IMG/VR virus record: IMGVR_UViG_3300027513_000003
Span: 1 to 46,042 of that record
Length of the DNA: 46,042 nt
Reading direction: 5' to 3' (one strand)
Source: a virus
Both the position numbers and the translations under genes were made by a program. Positions 4,637-21,789 of this stretch are shown piece by piece (the first letter of the stretch is position 1; every line of letters starts with the position of its first letter). Under the pieces are notes generated by a model, which made no database searches, was not told where the DNA came from, and saw only the letters and a program-made list of their open reading frames with translations.

Positions 4637-4812
4637 GACCCATCGAAATCACCGTCCGCAAGTTGAGCCGGAACGTTCGTGCGTCGATGCGCAATTGCGC
4701 TTTGAGTTATCGCCTCACGAGAAAGCGTGGCGACGTCGGCTTCATGATCCGCTGGCTTAACCATGCAACAACCTACCGCAGAATCGCTGCGGGATTTTTG
4801 GAGGCAGCGTAA
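4633..4812 (+). CDS. Small basic protein, 59 aa
   Basis: A GTG start at 4633 lies 5 bases after AGGAG (4623-4627) and overlaps the previous stop in a GTGA arrangement. The product begins VRPIEITVRKLSRNV and is strongly basic (many Arg/Lys), with an aromatic, hydrophobic C-terminal half. It ends four bases before the next start. Good ribosome-binding site, coupling and spacing make it a likely gene. A nucleic-acid-binding role is a guess from charge alone. Confidence 0.55.
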   Translation: MRPIEITVRKLSRNVRASMRNCALSYRLTRKRGDVGFMIRWLNHATTYRRIAAGFLEAA

Positions 4813-4816
4813 ATCT

Positions 4817-5767
4817 ATGTGTGAATTCAAATCCGCAATCGTGATGGCCAATGGCGATCTGCTCCACAACCCGTGGACTGATAGTCATGAGGACTTGGTG
4901 CGTCTGTTTAAACCCAACGACACGGCAACCACTCGGGATGAGCCTCGCTTTGCCCGCGTCGAATTCAAGCCAGATGAACCCACGGACCTCGCGGATATTT
5001 CCAAATACAAACTCAACATCGACGAGCTGCGAAAGCCTGAATGGTTCGATGCCGCAATGGAGGCGAAGACCATCGAGAAACTGAAGCTCATGGTTTCCGG
5101 GATGATAATCACGGGCGCAGTCGATTTAATTTGCGGCGGCGTGTTCATCCTCGGTAAAGGCGCGAAAGTGTCTTCGGCAAAAGCCGTGAAAATCGTTGCC
5201 ATGCTCGCAGATTCCAAGGTCGGCGAGATGTGGGGAAGCTCCAACGTCGGCGAGATGTGGGGAAGTTCCAACGTCGGCGTGATGTGGGGAAGCTCCAAGG
5301 TCGGCGTGATGCGGGGAAGTTCCAACGTCGGCGTGATGTGGGGAAGCTCCAAGGTCGGCGTGATGCGGGAAAGCTCCAACGTCGGCGAGATGTGGGGAAG
5401 CTCCAACGTCGGCGAGATGCGGGAAAGCTCCAAGGTCGGCGTGATGCGGGAAAGCTCCAACGTCGGCGAGATGTGGGGAAGCTCCAACGTCGGCGTGATG
5501 CGGGAAAGCTCCAACGTCGGCGAGATGTGGGGAAGCTCCAACGTCGGCGAGATGCGGGAAAGCTCCAAGGTCGGCGAGATGTGGGAAAGCTCCAAGGTCG
5601 GCGAGATGCGGGGAAGCTCCAAGGTCGGCGAGATGCGGGGAAGCTCCAAGGTCGGCGAGATGCGGGACAGCTCCAAGGTCGGCGTGATGCGGGACAGCTC
5701 CAAGGTCGGCGAGATGCGGGGAAGCTCCAAGGTCGACAAAGGCACGGACGAAAAACCTAAGGCATGA
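4817..5767 (+). CDS. Phage protein with nineteen 9-residue repeats
   Basis: The protein has 316 residues. The N-terminal part (1-130) starts MCEFKSAIVMANGDLL and has a DSHEDLVRLF motif and an FARVEF strand, a pattern seen in uncharacterised phage and bacterial proteins. Residues 135-305 are nineteen tandem copies of VG[EV]M[WR][GED]SS[NK]. Regular short repeats with alternating small and hydrophobic residues suggest a beta-solenoid. I chose ATG 4817 over the upstream 4763, which would overlap the small gene before it. Function is unknown; repeat number probably varies by slippage. Confidence 0.75.
   Translation: MCEFKSAIVMANGDLLHNPWTDSHEDLVRLFKPNDTATTRDEPRFARVEFKPDEPTDLADISKYKLNIDELRKPEWFDAAMEAKTIEKLKLMVSGMIITGAVDLICGGVFILGKGAKVSSAKAVKIVAMLADSKVGEMWGSSNVGEMWGSSNVGVMWGSSKVGVMRGSSNVGVMWGSSKVGVMRESSNVGEMWGSSNVGEMRESSKVGVMRESSNVGEMWGSSNVGVMRESSNVGEMWGSSNVGEMRESSKVGEMWESSKVGEMRGSSKVGEMRGSSKVGEMRDSSKVGVMRDSSKVGEMRGSSKVDKGTDEKPKA
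5219..5731 (+). repeat. Tandem 27-base repeat, 19 units
   Basis: Nineteen units of 27 bases with no spacers encode the 9-residue repeat. Differences sit at few codons: AAC/AAG, GAG/GTG, TGG/CGG and GGA/GAA/GAC. The unit has no stop in the other + frame (5230-5760) or in one - frame, so long shadow frames appear across it. Confidence 0.95.
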
Positions 5768-6746: not shown

Positions 6747-6970
6747 CCTCAACACTTTCATTGCGGGGTAGAGCAGCAGTAGTTCGCCAGCCTCATAAGC
6801 TGGAGGTCGGTTGTGCAACTCAACCTCCCGCAACCATTCTCGAATCGCGGTGCGCCTGGTGTGACAAGGAAAATGGCGTCAAACCGCAGCCGCATCACAC
6901 GCACACGATCTGCCCGCGCCACAAGGCCATGATGTTGGTGAGGGCGACGGAAATTAACACAGTCAAGTGA
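6743..6970 (+). CDS. Putative small zinc protein overlapping the tRNA
   Basis: The frame is open from ATG 6743 (ATGA overlap with the lipoprotein stop), but residues 7-31 translate the tRNA at 6762-6836. Only the C-terminal half looks like protein: Cys37-x2-Cys40, then HTHTICPRH, a possible Cys/His zinc site. The true start may be a non-ATG codon after the tRNA, such as ATT at 6836. Either the protein is real and starts late, or the tRNA landed in an older gene. Confidence 0.35.
   Translation: MTSTLSLRGRAAVVRQPHKLEVGCATQPPATILESRCAWCDKENGVKPQPHHTHTICPRHKAMMLVRATEINTVK
6762..6836 (+). tRNA. tRNA with anticodon CAT (Met or lysidine-type Ile), CCA encoded
   Basis: The 75-base cloverleaf has acceptor TGCGGGG/TCCCGCA with discriminator A and encoded CCA, D stem GAGC/GTTC, anticodon stem CCAGC/GCTGG around loop CTCATAA, variable loop AGGTC and T stem GGTTG/CAACC. 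The anticodon stem lacks the three G:C pairs of initiators and the first pair is T:A, so elongator Met or Ile(CAT) is more likely than fMet. The D loop (AGCAGTA) lacks the usual GG and the T loop (TGCAACT) has G in place of T55, so the normal elbow contacts are missing. Confidence 0.85.
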
Positions 6971-16260: not shown

Positions 16261-17028
16261 ATGAAATATCTACTTCAATACTCTGGCGGAGTTTGCAGCG
16301 CATGGGCTGGCGTCCGCGCTATTGAGCAATACGGCGTTGAAAACGTTGATTGGCTCTTTGCTGACGTTCTCATGGAAGACAAAGACCTGCACCGATTCAA
16401 TGGCGATATTGAGCGCGTGCTTGGCGTCAAAATCACGCGGCTCTGCGAGGGGCGTAATCCGTGGCAGGTATTCCGAGACGAGCACATGATTGGCAATTCG
16501 CGGGCGGATATGTGCTCTCGAATCCTAAAGCGGGAGCTTCTCAGAAAGCACATTTTCGGCAACTACATGCCTCTGGATTCCACCATTCTATTCGGTATGG
16601 ATTTCAGCGAAGCGAACCGGCTGGAAAACATGGCTGGCATCTATGCTCCGTTTGCTGTGGCCGCGCCGATGTTGGCCGCGCCGTTGTGGGACAAGTGCAA
16701 GATGCAGTCGGAAATCAAATCCCGGTTCGGGATTGAGCCGCCTCAACTCTACAAGGAGGGATTCCCGCACAACAACTGTGGAGGGTTCTGCGTTAAGGCA
16801 GGCCAGGCGCATTTCGCGCACCTGCTGAAAGTGCGCCCGGAAACCTACGCCTACCACGAAGCCGAAGAACAGGCGATGCGTGAGTTTTTAGGCAAAGACG
16901 TTGCGATACTACGCGACCGGCGGGGCGGGACGGTCAAGCCGCTTACGCTGCTGGCGTTTCGCGACCGCGTAGCAACTGGCGAGTTTGATAAAAACGAATG
17001 GGGCGGATGCGGCTGTGCAACATCTTGA
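16261..17028 (+). CDS. PAPS-reductase-like N-type ATP-pyrophosphatase
   Basis: The protein has 255 residues. The PP-loop SGGVCSAW (8-15) identifies an adenine-nucleotide alpha-hydrolase fold of the PAPS-reductase/ThiI/DndC class; the usual SGGxDS has Cys for Asp. C-terminal cysteines (NNCGGFC near 178-184 and GGCGC near the end) may bind a metal or Fe-S cluster. Phage members occur widely without a proven substrate. Sulfur transfer to nucleic acid or a redox role are both possible. Confidence 0.75.
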   Translation: MKYLLQYSGGVCSAWAGVRAIEQYGVENVDWLFADVLMEDKDLHRFNGDIERVLGVKITRLCEGRNPWQVFRDEHMIGNSRADMCSRILKRELLRKHIFGNYMPLDSTILFGMDFSEANRLENMAGIYAPFAVAAPMLAAPLWDKCKMQSEIKSRFGIEPPQLYKEGFPHNNCGGFCVKAGQAHFAHLLKVRPETYAYHEAEEQAMREFLGKDVAILRDRRGGTVKPLTLLAFRDRVATGEFDKNEWGGCGCATS

Positions 17029-17233: not shown

Positions 17234-18109
17234 TCAAGCTGCTTCGGAAAGCAAGTCGCCCGTCCGGCCAGCCATCAACTCAAACATCGAAGAAGTCTCG
17301 CCGACGTAGCGGTTCGAGTAGCGGAAAGCGAACTCGTTCACGTAAGCCTGCAAATACTTCGGACTGACATGATGATGCGTGCCGTCAATAGACCGTTTCA
17401 GTTGCGACCAGAAACCTTCAATGGTGTTGGTGTGACACCGGGCGCGAACGTATTCCTTGCGGGCATGGTTGACGGCTTCGTGACTGAATCCAAGCGGCTT
17501 GACGTAGTTGTAGTGATGCGCTTCGTCAGTGTGGATCGTCGCGCCCGGTTCAACCGTCTCGCGGATATGGGCAATGACGTTGGCGGTATTGACCGCGCCA
17601 ACAACCTTCGCTTGGACACCGCCCCGTCGATTCGCCACGCCAACCACGGCAGTCTTGCCAGCCGCGCCACGGCCACGCTTGCCGGGCCGTTTTCCGCCAA
17701 CGTAGGTTTCGTCCGCTTCACAGACGCCAGCGAACTTAACAGGCCCGTCCTCCATCAGCTTGCGGATTTCATGAGCCATGCGCCACGCGGTCTTGTAAGT
17801 CACGCCAAGCTGCCTTTGCAGTTCAGTAGCGGCCACTCCGTTGCGGCTGGTGGACATGAGGAAAATGGCAAAGAACCACGACACCAGCGAAGTCGTGGAC
17901 TTGTGAAAGATCGTGCCAGCCGTTGGGTAAACCTGAAAGCCGCACCACGAACAGGAATAGGAGCGGCGTTTCTCAATTGCATAAAAGCAATCCTTCTTCC
18001 CGCACTCATCGCACTTGCCGCCGTTCGGCCAGCGCGTAGCAAACAAAAAGTCCAAGCAAGCCCTGTTATCGGGGAACTGGTGTTGGAAGTCCTTTAACGT
18101 GTAACTCAT
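17234..18109 (-). CDS. IS1595-family (ISXO2-like) transposase
   Basis: The protein has 291 residues. An N-terminal zinc ribbon (Cys33, 36, 53, 56) is followed by a helical region and a DDE core: Asp133 (EADETYVGGK), Asp195 (HTDEAHHY) and Glu231 (NTIEGFWSQLK). All key residues are present and the length is normal, so it should be active. It opposes every neighbour, indicating a later insertion. I looked for IS1595-type terminal inverted repeats within about 80 bases on each side and found none, and only about 20 bases separate it from phage genes. It may be stranded or phage-adapted. Confidence 0.9.
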   Translation of the reverse strand: MSYTLKDFQHQFPDNRACLDFLFATRWPNGGKCDECGKKDCFYAIEKRRSYSCSWCGFQVYPTAGTIFHKSTTSLVSWFFAIFLMSTSRNGVAATELQRQLGVTYKTAWRMAHEIRKLMEDGPVKFAGVCEADETYVGGKRPGKRGRGAAGKTAVVGVANRRGGVQAKVVGAVNTANVIAHIRETVEPGATIHTDEAHHYNYVKPLGFSHEAVNHARKEYVRARCHTNTIEGFWSQLKRSIDGTHHHVSPKYLQAYVNEFAFRYSNRYVGETSSMFELMAGRTGDLLSEAA

Positions 18110-18356
18110 GCAAAAACTGTATCAAAATGATTACCTGTCGTCAAGGGATAATCGCGCAAACCAACTGTATCGCTTCATCGTCGGGCCGAACTGCAAACGC
18201 TGTCAAGAGATGGCGAAGAACGCCGCAACTCCAGACGGCACCCACCACCCCCACGCCGACGACCTGTGCGCCACTTGCTCTCACCCCGCGCATCATCATG
18301 TGCCTGTCTGCTACGCCAAGGGGTGCAGGTGTGAACGGTTTGAAGCCATAAAATGA
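18108..18356 (+). CDS. Small His/Cys-rich protein
   Basis: The frame gives 82 residues from ATG 18108, which shares CATG with the divergent transposase start; ATG 18210 would give 48 residues. The conserved-looking part is C-terminal: HHPHADDLCATCSHPAHHH, then CYAKGCRCERF, several Cys and His that probably bind zinc. It overlaps the nuclease gene by ATGA. If the transposase inserted here, the original start may have been lost. Confidence 0.5.
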   Translation: MQKLYQNDYLSSRDNRANQLYRFIVGPNCKRCQEMAKNAATPDGTHHPHADDLCATCSHPAHHHVPVCYAKGCRCERFEAIK

Positions 18357-18655
18357 TCTCCCCATCCCAATTCGAAGCCATGCAGGCCCGATGCAACGCG
18401 AATCGCCAGACGAGCGAAGGCGACCAGGAACTGGCACGCGAAGCTCGCCAGCCTGAGGTGAAGTTGCATGAGAAGATCATCGCGCATTGCGAGTCTCAAT
18501 GGCCGCGCTGGAAGTTCATTCACGCGCGCACGGATCGACGTTCGACTATTGCCGTCGGCTGTCAGGACTTCACGATCTTCATGCCCGGCGGAGTGCTCTG
18601 TGTGGAATGCAAAAAGGTCGGTGCAGAAAGAAAGGACAATCCCAGTGAATTGTAA
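18353..18655 (+). CDS. VRR-NUC-like nuclease, short
   Basis: The protein has 100 residues. Helix LHEKIIAHCESQWPRWKF, then strand DFTIFMPGGVLCVECKK, contains the catalytic Asp and Glu-x-Lys of the VRR-NUC group of PD-(D/E)XK nucleases (Gly-x-x-Asp-Phe, then E-C-K). The frame stops shortly after the ExK motif (RKDNPSEL), where family members normally continue with a Gln-containing helix. It overlaps the next gene by 11 bases, so the two are likely translated together. Family members often act as structure-specific nucleases. Confidence 0.65.
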   Translation: MISPSQFEAMQARCNANRQTSEGDQELAREARQPEVKLHEKIIAHCESQWPRWKFIHARTDRRSTIAVGCQDFTIFMPGGVLCVECKKVGAERKDNPSEL

Positions 18656-19826
18656 GTGCGGTAAAATAATGAACTCGAAATCCGATCGACTTCAACGCGG
18701 GTGGAAGCGGTTGGAGGAAGATGTTGTGTGCCCTGACTGTTGGGCATCCGGTTTTGTTTTGAGGAGCATCACATTCCCGATTGTTGGCCCGCTCGATTCC
18801 AGTGATTGGCCAGCCTTACGCGATGCGCTGGCTAAGGCCTGGGGTGATTCCACGCGGCTCGCGAATTGGTTGATGACCGAGCAATCCAAGTCCGATCGCG
18901 TGCGCCTGCCGACAGATGAAAAACTATGGAAGGCACCAAACCCGTATCAATATCCGCACGCCAGAAATGTTTGCCCGACGATGGCGAGCCAATCCGTCGT
19001 GGCTCTCTGCAATCAGGTCCAGCGGAAATATAACGCAATGCGGATTGAGGTTGTGTGGCGCGGCTCAGCATCACTGCCGAGCTTTCGTTATCCAGTTCCA
19101 TATCCACTCCCGGCGCAATCATGGTCCGCTCGTTGGCTGTCGGAGACTGAGAAGGTTCCGGTTATCAGCGTCCCTATTTCCGGGACACGCTTTGACTTGC
19201 GATTGCGTGGCAGCGCTGAATTTTCGCGGCAACTAAAAGCTTTCGACGCGCTGACTACCGGAAAAGCTGTGAAATGTGAGATGGCCATTTACCGAAAGAG
19301 CGTGAGTGAATCGCGCCATCGTAACGGAGACGGCCCGCATTCCTGTGTCATGGTTAAGCTGGTCATGTGGTTGCCCGCTGAAACAAAAAAGAGTGGCGAT
19401 AAGGTTTTGGTATTGCGGCGCCCAGCAGATTCTTTTTGGCGTGCTGAAATACCCAATCGCGATCCCTGGCTGCTTCACTGCGACCATCTTAAGTCATGGA
19501 TTATCGGGCACGAAAAGCGACTGCAACGCTTTGGAGATGACACGAAATTTGAAAAGCGTTGGCCCGCAACGATTCGAGAGAACATGAATACCCGGCGTGA
19601 AGAGGTTGTGCGGCGTCAACACAATCGGCTCGATTCGTTTTCACACAACGCGACGAAGATGCTGGCGGCATTTGCCAGTAGGCAGGGCGTAGCCAAAGTG
19701 GTTTATGAAAATATTGACGGCGGGTATCTGCCGTCTTTCCCGTGGTTCAAATTATGCGAATTACTGAAATATAAACTTTGCGAGCGCGGCATTGCGCTCG
19801 AAATCATCGAAGGCGCTCGCGAATGA
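18645..19826 (+). CDS. TnpB/Cas12-like RuvC-fold protein
   Basis: The protein has 393 residues from GTG 18645 (AAAGGA upstream). The N-terminal zinc site is Cys3, 5, 29, 32 (CKCG ... CPDC). The middle (45-250) is alpha/beta with RYPVPYPLP and LRLRGSAEF elements. The C-terminal third looks like a RuvC core: strand KVLVLRR (about 253-259), long helices (DHLKSWIIGHEKRL ... RRQHNRLDSFSHNA), then KVVYENID with Glu355, and FPWFKLCELLKYKLCERGI, as in TnpB/Cas12 RuvC-II. The first RuvC motif lacks the normal GxDxG aspartate. The protein stops before a RuvC-III Asp or internal zinc ribbon, so it may bind without cutting. Confidence 0.55.
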   Translation: MNCKCGKIMNSKSDRLQRGWKRLEEDVVCPDCWASGFVLRSITFPIVGPLDSSDWPALRDALAKAWGDSTRLANWLMTEQSKSDRVRLPTDEKLWKAPNPYQYPHARNVCPTMASQSVVALCNQVQRKYNAMRIEVVWRGSASLPSFRYPVPYPLPAQSWSARWLSETEKVPVISVPISGTRFDLRLRGSAEFSRQLKAFDALTTGKAVKCEMAIYRKSVSESRHRNGDGPHSCVMVKLVMWLPAETKKSGDKVLVLRRPADSFWRAEIPNRDPWLLHCDHLKSWIIGHEKRLQRFGDDTKFEKRWPATIRENMNTRREEVVRRQHNRLDSFSHNATKMLAAFASRQGVAKVVYENIDGGYLPSFPWFKLCELLKYKLCERGIALEIIEGARE

Positions 19827-20101
19827 TGAGCGACAACAATTTACGGCCACCGATAGGCCGAGCGCGATCCGGCCCCACATGCTTGCCGTGTGGAGGCTCT
19901 CGCGAAACGCTGATAAAGCAGCGGGGATATAGGCACTTGTGCCGCAGCCCCCGCAGTCACCAAGCAGAACTGTGGAGACTTCGGGGGTTAGTTTTTTCGC
20001 AGCGGTTGCTTTGGTCGGCGCCCGCAGTCACCAAGCAGAACTGTGAGCGCAGCATAAAAAGTAAACAACGAACTCATGAGGTGAAAACGACGACGAGCTG
20101 A
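19823..20101 (+). CDS. Putative small zinc protein, or non-coding guide-RNA region
   Basis: ATG 19823 overlaps the RuvC-protein stop (ATGA) and opens 92 codons. Residues 19-41 (PTCLPCGGSRETLI ... HLC) look like part of a zinc ribbon; the rest is low-complexity and has no partner Cys pair. The two 25-base repeats lie inside it but are read in different frames (71 bases apart, not a multiple of three), so they were not kept as protein repeats. The ribbon may be the split-off zinc ribbon expected near a RuvC-III motif, or the region may work as RNA. Confidence 0.35.
   Translation: MMSDNNLRPPIGRARSGPTCLPCGGSRETLIKQRGYRHLCRSPRSHQAELWRLRGLVFSQRLLWSAPAVTKQNCERSIKSKQRTHEVKTTTS
19948..19997 (+). terminator. 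Possible hairpin and T-run
   Basis: CCCCCG (19948-19953) can pair with CGGGGG (19982-19987) over a 28-base loop that contains the first 25-base repeat, followed by TTAGTTTTTT. It could be a weak intrinsic terminator or a structural element of a small RNA. The long loop lowers confidence. Confidence 0.35.
19950..20045 (+). repeat. Perfect 25-base direct repeat, 71-base period
   Basis: CCCGCAGTCACCAAGCAGAA followed by CTGTG occurs at 19950-19974 and 20021-20045 with no mismatch; 46 unique bases lie between. I found no third copy 71 bases to either side. A 71-base period equals a typical class 2 CRISPR repeat plus spacer (about 36 + 35) if only the 3' part of the repeat is conserved. It could also be a simple duplication. 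It lies 124 bases after the RuvC-fold gene. Confidence 0.85.
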
Positions 20102-20126: not shown

Positions 20127-20477
20127 GTGCCCTTAATCGACGACAATTTAATTGATTCACTTCGAAGTGCGGACGGCAAGTTCTCGCACTTCGCCCTGTT
20201 TTTGCTCGGGGTCATTCCCAGCAATCACGGCCCTGAGCTGCCTGATGAGAGCCAGTGGCGGCCGAAGTTGAATCCGAAGATTTCAACGCGGCATCTGATT
20301 GCGATCAAGGCGCAGGTCAGGTGGATGAAGAGGGGAACAAAGAAAGCCGTTACGAGAATTCCCGTAACGCGAATTAGGCCCGCCCTCAAAGCCCTTCGCC
20401 GTCTGCGCCGAAAAATCAACACCAAATTCAAAGCCATTCTCGCCATGGTGGATAAGGAGATTGCCTCGTGTGGATAA
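20127..20477 (+). CDS. Hypothetical protein with basic C-terminus
   Basis: The protein has 116 residues from GTG 20127. An N-terminal helical part (MPLIDDNLIDSLRSADGKF) precedes a very basic tail (about 70-105, RGTKKAVTRIPVTRIRPALK). It overlaps the start of the methyltransferase by eight bases. DNA or RNA binding is plausible from charge. No family recognised. Confidence 0.5.
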   Translation: MPLIDDNLIDSLRSADGKFSHFALFLLGVIPSNHGPELPDESQWRPKLNPKISTRHLIAIKAQVRWMKRGTKKAVTRIPVTRIRPALKALRRLRRKINTKFKAILAMVDKEIASCG

Positions 20478-21763
20478 TCCCAAAGCCATTACAGCAGTTG
20501 AGTGGTGTTTTGGCTACGGAGGGAATCATCTCGGACTCCGCAGAGTTCTGCCAGGCCTGCGCGTCATCGCTGCTTGTGAGATCGAAGGTTACGCAGTCGC
20601 GAATCTGGTCTCAAAAATTGAAGGCGGGCGGCTTTGTGAATTTCCTGTTTGGTCGGACGTTAAAACCTTCCCATGCGAACTCTTTCGAGACCTGGTTGAT
20701 ATCTTTATCGCGAGCTATCCTTGCCAGCCGTTCAGTTCTGCCGGCAGACGAGGCGGTGCCGACGACCCGCGACATCTGTGGCCCTTTGTGCGGCGGGCAA
20801 TTGAGATTATTCGACCCCGATACGTCTTCCTTGAAAATGTGGAAGGCCACGTCAGCCTCGGACTGCGTGAAGTCCTTACCGAATTGGCTTTGCTCGGATA
20901 CCGAGTGGAGAACAGCCGTGGCGAACCAACGTGGGGAATATTCTCGGCGGCTGAAGTTGGTGCGCCCCAGAATCGCAAAAGGGTCTTCATCGTCGCCAAA
21001 AGACAGGATGCAGAAGGATGCCTGGACGACGCCTTGCGCGAACTGGCTGAACGGTTCAACTCGGGAAGATTTCTGGCCGTCGCTGGTGGAGCAGGTGAAT
21101 TGGCCGACTCCGGACCTGGCGCCGATGGCACCGAACACCGGCAGCAACAAGGTCAACACCCCGAAGAGCTTCAAGGATGCACTGGACTGGAGAACGCCGG
21201 GAGCGATGAGCGAGAATCAGGCCCGAGGGCTCGGCTCTCATCCAGACAAACGGAAGGAGCAGGGTCGACAGATCAACCTCACAGATCAGATGGTGCAGTT
21301 CGGGAATTGGAAGACCCCGAAAGCCGACGAGCGGGGGCAGTATCAACGCGACCGCGGCACGAGGGGTCTGGAACGTCCGAACCTGACGGGTCAGGCGAAG
21401 GAGTTGGCCAGGCCAACTCCTCGATCGAGCGACTCCGAGAATCGCACAACAAGGAACACACCTTCTCACGGGAAGACCCACGGGAAGACATTGGCGGGCG
21501 AAGCGGCGTCGGCCAGGCCGACGCCTCGGAACCGGGATTGGAAGGGCGAAGGTCACCCCAATTGCCTGCCGAACGTCGTCCATGGTTCTGGCCCGACTTC
21601 GTCGCCAGACCCGGAGAACAGCAACACGAGTGGGAACCGCCAAGAGTCATCAAAACTGAACGCGGATTGGGTGGAGGCGTTAATGGACGTGCCTCCAATG
21701 TGGACCGATTGCGGTTGCTCGGCAACGGCGTCTATCCCGCTACGGCCGCCCTCGCATTTGTGA
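20468..21763 (+). other. Second full-length open frame overlapping the methyltransferase
   Basis: Frame +2 relative to the methyltransferase is open for 431 codons from GTG 20468, with AGGAG 8 bases upstream. Its last 230 codons look like real protein of phage C5-methylase type: VNWPTPDLAPM, FGNWKTPKADERGQY, ARPTPRNRDWKGEGHP and LNADWVEALMDVPPMWTDC. The N-terminal half looks like a shadow. It may be a genuine overprinted gene, or the old frame of the target-recognition domain. Confidence 0.4.
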
Positions 21764-21789
21764 CGCTATTCGAACGATTGCACAAATGA
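20470..21789 (+). CDS. DNA (cytosine-5) methyltransferase
   Basis: The protein has 439 residues from GTG 20470 (TTG 20461 lies only one base from the Shine-Dalgarno). Numbered from 20461, the motifs are: I FGYGGNHLGL, IV PCQPFS with catalytic Cys88, VI ENVEG (125-129), VIII QNRKRVF (170-176) and X LRLLGNGVYPATAALAF near the end. The order and spacing are normal for C5 methylases. The target-recognition region (200-400) is Gly/Glu/Arg-rich and low-complexity (ELADSGPGADG, DRLRL). It would protect phage DNA from host restriction or modify the host genome. Confidence 0.9.
   Translation: MDNPKAITAVEWCFGYGGNHLGLRRVLPGLRVIAACEIEGYAVANLVSKIEGGRLCEFPVWSDVKTFPCELFRDLVDIFIASYPCQPFSSAGRRGGADDPRHLWPFVRRAIEIIRPRYVFLENVEGHVSLGLREVLTELALLGYRVENSRGEPTWGIFSAAEVGAPQNRKRVFIVAKRQDAEGCLDDALRELAERFNSGRFLAVAGGAGELADSGPGADGTEHRQQQGQHPEELQGCTGLENAGSDERESGPRARLSSRQTEGAGSTDQPHRSDGAVRELEDPESRRAGAVSTRPRHEGSGTSEPDGSGEGVGQANSSIERLRESHNKEHTFSREDPREDIGGRSGVGQADASEPGLEGRRSPQLPAERRPWFWPDFVARPGEQQHEWEPPRVIKTERGLGGGVNGRASNVDRLRLLGNGVYPATAALAFVTLFERLHK

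Follow-up and report, generated by a model that had tools for sequence, protein, structure and literature searches.

The window analyzed here, a 46,042-base virus record of IMG/VR (IMGVR_UViG_3300027513_000003), contains a gene for a 393-aa protein that, judged by profile and predicted fold, is a Cas12f-type (type V-F-like) effector, and directly behind this gene a short array of clustered regularly interspaced short palindromic repeats (CRISPR). Effector gene, folded RNA region and repeat array lie in one orientation, and this arrangement recurs in five otherwise unrelated phage contigs, namely the window and four relatives designated L001, L008, L011 and L057. We consider it likely that they constitute a mobile, cleavage-dead, phage-borne minimal Cas12f-type CRISPR module whose guided binding silences other phages. 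The effector gene and its diagnostic segments are located as follows:

18645–19826, plus strand: truncated, RuvC-defective Cas12f-like effector, 393 aa, GTG start (by profile and predicted fold)
18651–18740, plus strand: N-terminal zinc-knuckle segment with Cys3, Cys5, Cys29 and Cys32 and LQRGWKR between them, conserved in four of five members
19401–19424, plus strand: RuvC-I strand KVLVLRRP (residues 253–260), with Arg258 at the position of the catalytic Asp according to profile alignment and model
19704–19712, plus strand: RuvC-II motif Tyr354-Glu355-Asn356, which by profile alignment is YDD in the other four members

The features that a first-pass annotation had read from this open reading frame (KVVYENID with Glu355, FPWFKLCELLKYKLCERGI, KVLVLRR and an N-terminal CxC...CxxC site) agree with the sequence. 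Searches of the protein against Pfam, PHROGs and NCBIfam yielded nothing useful, and its matches in a viral protein library were TnpB-like transposases and one CRISPR-associated fragment. PADLOC matched it to Cas12f (E=5.3e-6) and Cas12u3 (2.8e-5), and a profile of the five-member family matched solved Cas12f structures (9nzq, 1.2e-9; 9i8y, 8.6e-7), with AsCas12f entries at 1e-6 to 2e-5. The AlphaFold2 model of the window effector was usable (predicted local distance difference test, pLDDT, 77.8; predicted template modelling score, pTM, 0.63). Its top match in the PDB by Foldseek was AsCas12f (8j3r, E 6.9e-18) and the top 20 matches were all Cas12f, with weaker matches to TnpB (5e-11) and Cas12m (8hhm, 1.7e-5). 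Whole-chain TM-scores against Cas12f reached only ~0.4 because the lobes are placed differently; TMt was 0.70 over 217 columns against 7wju_B. Since PADLOC, family profile and structural matches agree, the similarity to Cas12f is not due to chance. Of the earlier assignment to a TnpB/Cas12-like group, the Cas12 type is thus retained, but the closest family is Cas12f (V-F) and not Cas12m or TnpB. The RNase H/RuvC fold on which that assignment depended is predicted at residues 253–389, where strands and helices match those of Cas12f. A second model, made for the L057 protein, has its strands and helices in the same order but is of lower confidence (pLDDT 69.5). Among the homologues found, none is annotated with an unrelated function.

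The catalytic site is incomplete, as had been proposed from the missing RuvC-I aspartate and the early stop of the chain. Profile alignment places Arg258 of the window on the RuvC-I aspartate of AsCas12f, which we take to be numbered D225, and R, S, R and H are found at this position in L011, L001, L008 and L057. At RuvC-II, the counterpart of E324 of AsCas12f is Glu355 in the window and Asp in each of the four relatives. All five chains end ahead of the zinc ribbon and RuvC-III. The C-terminal zinc ribbon (TNB) is absent from every member, including L057 with its differing tail, and L011 covers positions 1–29 of the 60 positions of the TNB domain model and then stops. In place of the complete triad Asp, Glu, Asp, the window has Arg-Glu-none and the relatives have R/S/R/H-Asp-none, so the missing motif is shared by all homologues, which lack both the RuvC-I acid and the C-terminal half-site. 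With two of three catalytic positions lost according to these alignments, DNA cleavage by the effector family is unlikely. The N-terminal cysteine site noted in the first-pass annotation is indeed present; it reads CxC in the window and CxxC in the relatives, with conservation in four of the five members.

The feature that we judge most telling, a repeat pair downstream of the gene, was absent from the first-pass annotation. The non-coding part of the locus comprises:

19827–19946, plus strand: putative scaffold resembling a trans-activating CRISPR RNA (tracrRNA), with stem-loops and compensatory changes relative to L011
19947–19974, plus strand: CRISPR-type repeat 1, a 28-mer, GCCCCCGCAGTCACCAAGCAGAACTGTG
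19975–20017, plus strand: putative guide (spacer) 1, 43 nucleotides (nt)
20018–20045, plus strand: CRISPR-type repeat 2, a 28-mer identical to repeat 1 at 27 of 28 positions
20046–20089, plus strand: putative guide 2 past the last repeat, boundaries uncertain

Repeats and variable spacers directly follow the effector gene on the same strand in all five loci. A source of guides therefore adjoins the gene throughout, in line with the guide-dependent binding that had been suggested for the protein. The arrays consist of nine identical 36-mers with spacers of 35–39 nt in L011, six 36-mers with spacers of 37–41 nt in L008, four 37-mers with spacers of 34–40 nt in L057, and three 37-mers plus a degenerate one with spacers of 29 nt in L001. 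The phages differ in their repeat sequences, several of which end in short complementary stretches. In L001, a 25-nt inverted repeat (L001:2456-2480 and 2596-2620, 92% complementary) overlaps and follows the degenerate last repeat.

The interval between gene and array folds better than shuffled sequences in the window (z=-2.97) and in L011 (z=-2.62), and in both the last stem pairs with the 5' end of the first repeat (GCGGGG with CCCCGC in the window). Among 34 base pairs compared between the two, 20 are unchanged, seven are changed on both sides, none on one side only, and seven are broken. A comparable hairpin is predicted beside the first repeat in L008 and L057, whose full intergenic regions fold no better than shuffles. 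Fold, compensatory changes and short anti-repeats, all seen at the level of sequence, suggest that this region may be a tracrRNA-like scaffold. An alternative was that a frameshift hides the missing zinc ribbon, as an open reading frame at 19778–20101 reads TCLPCGGSRETLIKQRGYRHLC just past the stop and resembles the lost part of TNB. We rejected it on four grounds: the coding regions of the relatives end at almost the same position, L011 has no cysteine pairs in that frame, the differences between window and L011 are spread over the codon positions in a manner that argues against coding (16/18/9 of 38 each), and the region has a compensatory fold. Speculatively, the apparent zinc-ribbon frame may be what is left of a former end of the coding region.

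A scan of IMG/VR with the window protein found one relative, L001 (28% identity, E 1e-47). A DNA pattern for the motif AWxxSTxLANW recovered L011 and L008, a profile-based scan recovered L057, and a second, independent pattern search returned only members of the same five-member set. Identity to the window protein is 37% for L011 and about 30% for L001, L008 and L057. No homologues were found in named-phage or plasmid collections, and a pattern scan of bacterial genome contigs gave 44 matches, none of them homologous. Profile searches of 392, 388, 297 and 284 bacterial genomes from the phyla of the Rhodopirellula, Verrucomicrobiales, Acidobacteria and Myxococcales loci, which as samples give no proof of absence, likewise found none. 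The clade may already have been described earlier. Each of the five contigs carries phage hallmark genes (terminase, portal, replication initiation, tail or DNA polymerase); in the window, terminase and portal matches are accompanied by genes for a RecT-like protein, an exonuclease and helicases and by a weak integrase match. In L011, effector gene and array sit between the portal and terminase genes. In an all-against-all comparison of the contigs, essentially only the effector gene was common, apart from one other pair between L001 and L057. Cas1 was not found in the five contigs, which may be fragments; Cas2 lay outside the search. New spacers would therefore come from recombination or host machinery.

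In the mechanism that we favour, the RNA region between gene and array would serve as a tracrRNA-like scaffold, and the effector would take up guides made from the array, bind matching DNA or possibly the transcript, and thereby block expression in competing phages without cutting. The family would most plausibly work like Cas12m while being related to Cas12f, as comparison with these systems indicates. A further-reaching reading, which we regard as tentative and somewhat short of an even chance, is that the family is a type V variant in its own right, which has given up the RuvC-III/zinc-ribbon half of Cas12f for good and moves between unrelated phages as an autonomous anti-phage weapon that works without cleavage, with the scaffold possibly at the gene's former 3' end. 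If the silencing interpretation is true, phages possess a native form of CRISPR interference that needs no cleavage and uses the smallest Cas12 scaffold, and such a system can lose the catalytic half of RuvC and still be maintained. Viral use of nuclease-dead CRISPR systems becomes directly testable, and a natural RNA-guided DNA binder of ~400 residues is a possible compact tool.

Use against rival phages, as had been suggested, is supported by spacer 3 of L057, which matches a gene of another phage. Its reverse complement encodes LYKHVNAPEARM, and a codon-degenerate scan of IMG/VR matched four further contigs, against ~0.01 expected as estimated from the pattern information. The pattern itself required ten codons, but there is further agreement in the flanking Asn, Arg, Met and Tyr codons. 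The four contigs are near-identical copies of one virus, the largest 221 kb, and the matched gene is nrdB, the small subunit of ribonucleotide reductase (PF00268, 6.7e-42). Spacer and viral nrdB share 35 of 40 nt, and each of the five mismatches is a synonymous change at a third codon position, an outcome obtained in 4 of 20,000 random trials. The L057 contig itself contains no nrdB. Judged by these sequence matches, the true source of the spacer is probably a relative of the viral nrdB. Since the L057 guide is antisense to the nrdB transcript, it may bind RNA. The nrdB of the target virus (L081:5482-7470) carries an apparent intein-like insertion, with two PF00268 pieces in one 663-aa frame. 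Comparison of the spacers with named phages and plasmids gave no credible match.

Cas12f functions as an asymmetric dimer on one guide RNA. The present family resembles AsCas12f and OsCas12f in profile and fold, which match from the N-terminal lobe across RuvC and as far as the strand that follows the RuvC-II helix, in its size of ~400 aa, and in having an RNA region and an array beside the gene, the latter with only two repeats in the window. In contrast, it lacks two defining features of Cas12f, the triad and the zinc ribbon (second TNB half), together with RuvC-III, and it has the cysteine motif in four of five members. A natural dCas12f deposited as nuclease-deactivated (PDB 9n9c) is a structural match (6.8e-15) but only weakly related in sequence (E 0.026); it presumably works with a sigma factor in Bacteroidetes. 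In huge phages, a 'dCas14' of V-F type without one catalytic residue was predicted and proposed to be a repressor, with a guide that targets the host glycyl tRNA synthetase (PMC7162821). It is likewise phage-borne, whereas the present family has lost the entire C-terminal half-site, in five unrelated phages, and the single target found lies in another phage. Cas12m binds and silences without cutting (PMC10442227; PMC11013384), and the active-site loss in the present family is compatible with the same mode of action. In Cas12m2, whose triad is His-Asp-Asp, the Asp in second position functions in DNA binding (PMC10442227); an Asp occupies the same position in four of five members of the present family. 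However, Cas12m retains Asp579 as the third residue, is a larger protein and matches the window model far less well than AsCas12f does. From landfill, viral effectors of type V were described whose RuvC motifs are weak or missing (PMC12607003); compared by description only, they too are virus-borne, 300–400 aa long and located beside arrays without adaptation genes. Inactivation of RuvC was reported for several type V subtypes (PMC12669027). Given the precedents of the predicted phage 'dCas14', plasmid-borne Cas12m, dCas12f and TldR (discussed below), this kind of system is already known and the variant is new.

Several observations weigh against silencing of other phages by this module. A convincing target was found for one of the 23 spacers examined, and this spacer belongs to L057, not to the window; a bacterial nrdB may be its true source, and the other codon-aware scan tried, with spacer 2 of L011, found nothing. 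The compensatory changes in the scaffold are derived from two sequences, window and L011. The array of the window is the shortest of the five and its repeats lack the GCAGG end present in the relatives, so that the window copy of the module may be decaying. A slight possibility of residual metal binding follows from Glu355 in the window and from an Asp located two residues past the RuvC-I position in three members, all of them relatives.

Among the rival explanations, a fixed-guide regulator of host or own genes, with a few guides that reprogram the host in lysogeny or infection, survives best, yet we regard it as unlikely. The model is phage TldR, a nuclease-dead, TnpB-like RNA-guided repressor that was shown to regulate host flagellin (PMC13418256), and the window with its two repeats and integrase-like gene would fit such a role. 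Self-targeting by the spacers was at or near chance, except for spacer 2 of L001 with a 15-nt run in its own genome (L001:4881-4908) above all 60 shuffles, which is possibly a self-target or a spacer from a related phage. The open reading frame at this site reads AGIRQDLFGFADIIAV and is nuclease-like by eye. However, TldR is TnpB-derived and uses a single omega-RNA-like guide without a repeat array, whereas all five loci here have arrays and match Cas12f better. Moreover, the nine repeats of L011 and six of L008 enclose spacers of 35–41 nt that are all different, with no self match clearly above chance, and one spacer matches another virus.

That the locus is the degenerating leftover of a Cas12f locus and now lacks a function would account for the missing catalytic half and for the short array and short repeats of the window. 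We consider this improbable, as drift would not preserve what five members at ~30% identity retain: open frames, a near-identical end point, arrays and invariant motifs, of which STxLANW is one. Even less probable is a decoy in which the dead Cas12f soaks up host CRISPR RNAs or blocks a host type V system: phages carry the dead effector with a tracr-like RNA, and a RuvC-dead phage Cas9 provides a precedent (PMC10910872), but that Cas9 has no array, in contrast to the five members here, each of which has an array with spacers of its own. An RNA-guided transposition or integration module is least credible, for although CasMu-V, a Cas12 in a Mu transposon linked to MuA, combines the same type of RuvC-III loss with an array on a phage-like element (PMC10910872) and an IS1595 transposase adjoins the window gene, neither Mu-transpos_C nor rve was found in the five contigs (DDE_Tnp_IS1595 lay outside the search in those of the four relatives), and the IS1595 gene belongs to a different family and points in the opposite direction.

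The neighbourhood of the window locus contains further genes. The IS1595-family transposase (17234–18109, minus strand; PF12762, 7e-43) is located directly upstream of the effector gene and divergent from it. A 100-aa open reading frame (18353–18655, plus strand) overlaps the start of the effector gene and, with GCQDF...CVECKK, resembles nucleases of PD-(D/E)XK/VRR type; it has no Pfam match. A C-5 cytosine DNA methyltransferase is encoded just downstream of the array (20461–21789, plus strand; PF00145, 2.5e-29). Type IV-B loci carry a CysH-like protein, and a gene of the PAPS reductase family is found near the CRISPR locus (16261–17028, plus strand; PHROG 424, 1.6e-31), which is probably a coincidence. 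Elsewhere in the window, a tRNA-Met (CAT) gene is present at 6762–6836 (plus strand), and ~19 copies of a 27-bp repeat at 5213–5735 lie inside an open reading frame (4763–5767) and give rise to a repetitive protein segment.
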